The notes under the pieces are model-generated. The model had not been told where the DNA came from. It saw nothing but the letters and a program-made list of their open reading frames with translations, and searched no databases. This document shows, in pieces, positions 20,645 through 21,283 of a DNA stretch of 33,275 nucleotides. The DNA is from Syntrophomonadaceae bacterium (GTDB taxonomy: Bacteria > Bacillota > Syntrophomonadia > Syntrophomonadales > Syntrophomonadaceae). A program made the position numbers and the translations under genes. The stretch is taken from the NCBI GenBank assembly GCA_028706315.1, contig JAQWBP010000023.1:1-33275 (forward strand), read 5' to 3'. Within the stretch, counting starts at the first letter, position 1, and each line of letters starts with the position of its first letter.

Positions 20645-20694
20645 TGTACAGAACTTTAGGGTTAATTACACTGTGAAAACCCTTAAAACAACCT

Positions 20695-20905
20695 GTTTGA
20701 ATGCATAAATATGGAGAGCGACGTTAACGGAGCATGGTAGAAACACCCTGCGAAGGCGTAGCGGCGGAAGGGGGCGAACGACATGGACGTCGTGAGCGGG
20801 TACTGAACACGGATGTGAATTTACCCGGTACCCCTGAAGCCGCAAGACAAGCAGTTGGTGTTTCCCATGCGGAGAGTAGTCGCCGGAATATTTATGCATT
20901 CAAAC
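20695..20905 (+). ncRNA. Unassigned structured RNA-like element closed by an 18-bp perfect stem
   Basis: A 211-base element in the nth-ileS gap. Its ends are an exact 18-bp inverted repeat, GTTTGAATGCATAAATAT (20695-20712) with its complement at 20888-20905. Inside, consecutive helices nest cleanly: 20718-20722 with 20879-20883; 20732-20737 with 20865-20870; 20740-20747 with 20857-20864; 20748-20751 with 20851-20854; 20761-20765 with 20839-20843; 20769-20773 with 20831-20835. A junction then holds two hairpins, 20778-20782/20789-20793 and 20797-20802/20822-20827. The interior is much richer in G+C than the flanks. I do not recognise the family: it lacks the RNase P, tmRNA, SRP and simple 6S hallmarks. 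The strand is uncertain. A 71-residue frame over it is probably chance. A group II intron fragment or a non-autonomous mobile element are alternatives. Confidence 0.6.
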
Positions 20906-20969
20906 TAACGCCGTATATCATTAATAGAGAATCAGGGTTAAAAAAATAAAAACATGGCCATACTTGAGT

Positions 20970-20998: not shown

Positions 20999-21047
20999 CT
21001 ACAATATAATACGATTTTTATGATATAATCGAGATTTATAATAAGTA

Positions 21048-21283
21048 ATGCTATGAACGGGATAGTAAACGAATGTGAGCAGTTTACAGCGAGTTCGGAC
21101 TGGTGGGAGCCGAGCAACTGTAGTTTCGTCTGAAGATCACCCGGGAGCATTTCAATTCGAAAGCACGAGTGAGTAGAATTGAACGCAGCTTGCGTTACAA
21201 AGCATTAAGCAGCATTAGCAAAAATGCTAGTAGGGTGGTACCGCGGAAGAAGACCTTTCGTCCCTTGGGATGAAAGGTCTTTG
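21048..21283 (+). promoter_or_regulatory. T-box leader (isoleucine) of ileS
   Basis: A complete T-box riboswitch. Stem I begins near GAACGGGATAGTAAACG, contains a GCGAGTTCGGACTGGTGG-type segment and has ATC (21136-21138) in specifier-loop position, an isoleucine codon. The T-box sequence AGGGTGGTACCGCGG is at 21232-21246. It is followed by the terminator stem AGACCTTTC...GAAAGGTCT (about 21252-21280) with a short T tail. Uncharged tRNA-Ile would pair with the specifier and the T-box and favour the antiterminator, so ileS is expressed when isoleucyl-tRNA is low. Confidence 0.95.
21250..21283 (+). terminator. T-box-controlled terminator before ileS
   Basis: AAGACCTTTCGTCCC pairs with GGGATGAAAGGTCTT across a two-base loop, allowing one G-T pair, followed by a short T run. 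Its 5' side is downstream of the T-box motif, which competes for pairing. Confidence 0.85.

Follow-up and report, generated by a model that had tools for sequence, protein, structure and literature searches.

What is the GC-rich, hairpin-rich stretch lying between nth and ileS in this Syntrophomonadaceae genome, and how did it come to be there? A preliminary description of the window (the whole 33,275-nucleotide stretch of DNA analysed here) had placed a feature of 211 bases in this gap, and had proposed for it a possible undescribed structured RNA, a non-autonomous mobile element or a group II intron remnant. The nth-ileS stretch probably stems from an old insertion of a small transposable DNA element that carries a folded RNA related to TwoAYGGAY. 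In terms of anatomy, we consider it likely to be a non-autonomous DNA transposon (MITE) of 270 bp, degenerate in this copy, with an RNA cargo of about 210 nt that belongs to the TwoAYGGAY superfamily. We document here its ends, its target duplications, its multicopy dispersal, an RNA fold with compensatory changes and, in relatives, transposons that encode a transposase and have matching ends.

The element and its copies in the genome

The genes flanking the element were confirmed as nth and ileS, as previously proposed. The genome (2.5 Mb in 94 contigs, 99.9% complete; G000 below) contains 14 full-length copies with identity of at least 91%, plus interrupted or partial ones. On both sides the copies remain similar for about 30 bp past the 18-bp arms, after which the flanks are unique. 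Intact copies measure 270-271 bp, carry terminal inverted repeats of the GATTCCNCTGC type and have no transposase gene, while uninterrupted copies as a whole, aligned to the element ends, mostly fall within 268-273 bp. Terminal inverted repeats, lack of a transposase gene and short length are the features by which bacterial MITEs are recognised, and in the window copy the ends are degenerate (Table 1). Target duplications were read after aligning 16 copies from this genome to the element ends. We found an exact 6-bp duplication around 11 of the 16, the window copy included, against about one (maximum 6) when the flanks were randomly re-paired. The copy in the window is an old one with degenerate ends, yet AGGGTT is duplicated exactly on its two sides.

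The suggestion of a non-autonomous mobile element was therefore borne out by the multiple copies, the inverted-repeat ends and the 6-bp target duplications; copies with conserved ends in separate genomic contexts, two signs for which a search had been advised, were both found. The 18-bp repeats, formerly taken as the ends of the element, are instead the basal helix of the RNA, and the true ends are degenerate inverted repeats lying about 30 bp outward. In this sense, the limits first given to the feature are right for the RNA core and too narrow for the mobile element.

Table 1. Features of the element and its surroundings (window positions unless another contig is named)
Feature	Position	Strand	Description
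Left target duplication AGGGTT	20658..20663	.	exact 6-bp match to 20934-20939
Whole MITE-like element	20664..20933	+	270 bp; ends aligned to 15 other copies of the same genome
Degenerate left end	20664..20694	+	AATTACACTGTGAAAACCC... in window copy; GATTCCACTGCGGAAACCCC... in intact copies
Structured RNA core, TwoAYGGAY-like	20695..20905	+	fold z = -8.6; covariation n = 48; sub-threshold RF01731 match 20725-20877
Basal helix, 5' arm	20695..20712	+	18 bp, 100% complementary to 20888-20905; two-sided changes in 15/18 pairs
Long central helix, 5' strand	20732..20751	+	pairs with 20851-20870; 18 pairs, 91.9% of cells paired; two-sided changes in 11/18 pairs (48 sequences)
Hairpin 1	20775..20796	+	loop AUGGAC 20783-20788; tandem G.A 20776-20777 with 20794-20795; 98.8% of cells paired (48 sequences)
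Hairpin 2	20798..20826	+	loop ACGGAU 20809-20814; closing stem covaries
Long central helix, 3' strand	20851..20870	+	covariation, 48 sequences
Basal helix, 3' arm	20888..20905	+	partner of 20695-20712; complementarity and covariation
Degenerate right end	20906..20933	+	...ATAGAGAATC in window copy; ...TTTTTGCAGGGGAATC in intact copies
Right target duplication AGGGTT	20934..20939	.	exact 6-bp match to 20658-20663
T-box leader of ileS	21044..21268		score above its gathering score
47-48-bp unit	L198 (G000:C9:40325-40483), L206, L211, L213; within copies L014-L018, L020-L029

Elements with identical ends that lack the RNA also occur. Minimal ones, with little beyond the two ends, measure 55 bp in this genome (L230, L231, L232) and 45 bp in G035 (L233, L234, L235), and a second MITE family of about 230 bp combines the common ends with an unrelated interior at no fewer than 8 places of this genome (L037, L044, L057 and L060 in G000). 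The short RNA-less elements may have arisen by deletion, which short direct repeats at the junctions would permit, or may represent ancestral forms. Besides, a unit of 47-48 bp (TACCCnnnnGGGCACnACTGATGTTCGC...CTCACnATTAAGG) is inserted at several sites inside the RNA element, in either orientation, and forms tandem arrays at element remnants. It has 33 sites in this genome versus 1 for the reversed control, and a similar unit is present in G020 (L083, L123). This unit resembles a MITE-borne minisatellite reported from Porphyromonas gingivalis (PMC4596501).

A conserved RNA fold related to TwoAYGGAY

On the plus strand the 211-base stretch reaches a minimum free energy of -95.8 kcal/mol, compared with a mean of -58.75 for 200 dinucleotide shuffles of the same stretch (z = -8.58; 0/200 as good), in agreement with the earlier view that the fold exceeds chance. 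All the structural parts already described are present, namely the perfect 18-bp terminal stem, the helices nested within it and a junction with two hairpins, and the helices covary in 48 homologues. RNAalifold run on the MAFFT alignment returned 34 pairs only, and the pairs were counted instead from the window fold mapped onto that alignment: 89.1% of cells pair and 44 of 60 pairs show two-sided changes, counts that lean towards the mapped fold and for which the shuffled and slid controls are the guard. The covariation score of these 48 sequences was 0.336, against 0.130 after shuffling and 0.04-0.08 with slid partners. A covariance model (R1) built from the core matched 46 of 299 genomes of the phylum, and in 64 copies of this kind 42/42 pairs vary on both sides, in an alignment that was itself fitted to the model. 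Within this genome, the 14 copies keep 828 of 829 pair cells, with several pairs changing in step.

The loops are conserved as well. GGA is kept in both loops of all 14 copies of this genome while the N position varies; in the 48 near homologues it is found in hairpin 1 of 44 and in hairpin 2 of about 46, and 61 of the 64 distant copies have it in both. The two tandem G.A pairs are present in 45 and 43 of the 48 sequences for hairpin 1, and in 33 and 32 for hairpin 2. To judge from these substitution patterns, the core appears to be a real plus-strand RNA, in keeping with the structured RNA first guessed, and its shape seems to have stayed intact as the element multiplied in this genome and in related ones.

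TwoAYGGAY RNA was reported by Weinberg et al. in 2010 (Rfam RF01731; PMC2864571). The window shows two hairpins with AYGGAY loops (AUGGAC and ACGGAU) and tandem G.A pairs in the hairpin stem, which are traits of that RNA. It matches RF01731 over the whole model with 31.3 bits, below the gathering score of 43, and two relatives score 34.4 and 29.7 bits. Four more distant loci found with R1 pass that gathering score (57.5, 54.5, 44.3 and 43.1 bits). The loci bridging to TwoAYGGAY are L136, L144, L142 and L157, the first of which belongs to the same taxonomic family as the window genome and reaches 101 bits with R1. Since R1-found loci, L136 included, exceed the RF01731 gathering score while the window falls short of it, we regard the window RNA as a divergent relative within the TwoAYGGAY superfamily and not as a member of RF01731 by the Rfam criterion. 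The term 'undescribed' was thus only partly right: no Rfam family attained its gathering score with this RNA, which is nevertheless akin to a known one.

Spread among relatives and transposons with matching ends

Carriers number 15 of the 61 genomes searched, the genome of the window counted, and the copies in other genera have about 70-80% identity and are scattered over genera. Named records with the core are nearly all from Syntrophomonas and other Syntrophomonadaceae; S. wolfei subsp. methylbutyratica has dozens of core loci. The phage and plasmid collections searched gave no match to the element.

Relatives carry this RNA behind other ends. In G025 it lies within GTTGCCCCTGAAAAACTC ends and 6-bp TANNTA-like duplications (read by eye), and these ends also bound a transposon (L249) with an ISNCY-family transposase (NF033593; 479 bits, cut-off 325). 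In an RNA-bearing copy of G035 (L117) the ends are GAGACCACTGAAAAAGTC and the duplicated target is GAACCGTCC, and it shares both with a transposon of the IS1182 family (L245; NF033551, 396 bits, cut-off 270). Autonomous partners were hence seen for these other end types. For the ends of this genome, the nearest relative found, in G006, is a broken copy of an ISNCY element (L251) with the similar ends GATTCTGCTGAAAAAA; no autonomous transposon with exactly these ends was found, pairing of this end type in G020, G021 and G035 yielded none, and three candidate autonomous stretches inspected by eye had no recognisable transposase frame.

The GATTCCNCTGCAAAAA end family is very abundant in G020 (complete, 2,936,195 bp), where 54 sites match this end with at most 1 mismatch versus 0 for the reversed control, and where no autonomous source was found. 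In addition, RNA-bearing elements in the distant genomes G272 (L168-L173), G295 (L142, L174-L177) and G290 (L151, L182-L186) lie, by eye, between duplicated terminator-like hairpins, as if a terminator target had been duplicated whole.

We infer that the RNA switched ends at least twice, because it is found behind the ends of this genome, behind those of the L249 and L245 types and within terminator-flanked ends. The element would be moved in trans by ISNCY-group transposases, with their 6-bp duplications. In related lineages, a version bounded by different ends would depend on an IS1182 transposase (9-bp duplication), and at least two transposon families may thus have acquired one and the same RNA.

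Possible role of the RNA and alternative readings

No promoter or terminator above chance was found inside the element, so expression, if any, would occur by read-through, presumably from neighbouring promoters. The RNA may then act in trans, its two ANGGA-capped hairpins, each atop tandem G.A pairs, being offered to a GGA-binding protein, plausibly CsrA in the hosts that have it. A step further, and only tentatively, it is conceivable that the lasting unit is the RNA and not the DNA ends. It would then be a selfish, mobile RNA gene able to pass between the ends of unrelated transposons (ISNCY, IS1182 and, in other parts of the phylum, elements that target hairpins), and the element itself or a GGA-binding protein other than CsrA would need its fold with two GGA hairpins.

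A rather doubtful alternative is that the MITE spreads a CsrA-sequestering, CsrB-like sponge, whose two ANGGA hairpins would bind CsrA and relieve the repression of host mRNAs. The loops fit the CsrA motif, their GGA persists in the distant copies, and CsrA titration was proposed for TwoAYGGAY (PMC4333381). At the level of the phylum, CsrA is present in 41 of 46 carriers versus 171 of 253 non-carriers (Fisher p = 0.0025, relatedness ignored), but among nearer relatives there is no such association (p = 0.54), and we regard the co-occurrence of CsrA with the RNA as weak. Moreover, a search for the CsrA domain PF02599 gave no match in the genome of the window, with control genomes positive, and CsrA went undetected in 6 of the 15 near carriers, this genome among them, some of these genomes being incomplete. 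FliW is also missing in G000, G019, G025, G043 and G045. As fold and loops are kept in a genome without detectable CsrA, binding of this protein would not be the whole story, unless it was lost very recently; there, the RNA may have another partner or serve the element itself.

It is improbable that the element is a palindrome at the DNA level only, with the RNA fold as a by-product of the inverted repeat. MITEs are often palindromic and the core folds well on both strands (z = -9.3 on the minus strand), as any long imperfect palindrome would. However, the fold is multi-branched with asymmetric conserved loops, its internal helices covary across different ends, and GGA loops stay fixed while stems change. 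G.U pairs are also in excess on the plus strand, 89 versus 53 for the minus-strand equivalent (binomial p = 0.003, with non-independent sequences), and the varying pairs of this genome include G.U and no A.C.

Even less credit is due to a cis-regulatory leader, the type assigned to TwoAYGGAY by Rfam, acting here on ileS. The RNA does precede ileS and share its strand, but ileS already has a T-box and the distribution of the RNA is dispersed and multicopy. Among 63 loci, 30 have a sense and 32 an antisense upstream gene, and on the downstream side antisense genes are at least as frequent as sense ones. The RNA of the element is probably not a leader, since the orientation of neighbours is random and no promoter was found in the element. 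As for the group II intron remnant, suggested by the impression of a large multi-helix fold and nothing else, its probability is next to nil and it is ruled out as far as Rfam and anatomy allow: no such family matches even at E <= 10, and DNA-transposon ends and target duplications were found instead.

The MITE reading would now place inside such elements a large clade of TwoAYGGAY, an RNA that has stayed an orphan since 2010. This placement would explain its patchy, multicopy distribution, speak against a cis-regulatory role and make the CsrA-sponge proposal testable; the conservation of the RNA without detectable CsrA points to another reader of GGA loops, to an RNA serving the transposon or to a very recent loss of CsrA. 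It would also be a case of a single structured RNA borne by MITEs of two transposase families. If the mobile RNA gene proposed above were real, TwoAYGGAY would constitute a phylum-wide transposon-borne RNA class and not a regulatory leader.

In the literature library searched, neither a MITE carrying a TwoAYGGAY-like RNA nor such CsrA sponges in Bacillota came up. Among known systems, TwoAYGGAY itself has two hairpins with AYGGAY-type loops capping a long stem, with tandem G.A pairs, as here, but its Rfam type is cis-regulatory, whereas the window RNA is multicopy MITE cargo with no fixed neighbours. The ISNCY and IS1182 transposons (NF033593, NF033551) have ends and duplication length in common with the RNA elements through L249 and L245, although the RNA elements lack the transposase gene and carry a conserved structured RNA, and so are not plain internal deletions. 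CsrA-sequestering RNAs of the CsrB/RsmZ type also display GGA motifs in hairpin loops; unlike them, the window RNA has two sites and not many, a large conserved scaffold and mobility, and is found where CsrA is absent. Finally, QMITE1 and QMITE2 of Coxiella burnetii (PMC5896051) are likewise dispersed MITEs, stably folded and able to yield small RNAs, but no covarying RNA family across genera was reported for them, whereas here the RNA outlasts the changes of ends.
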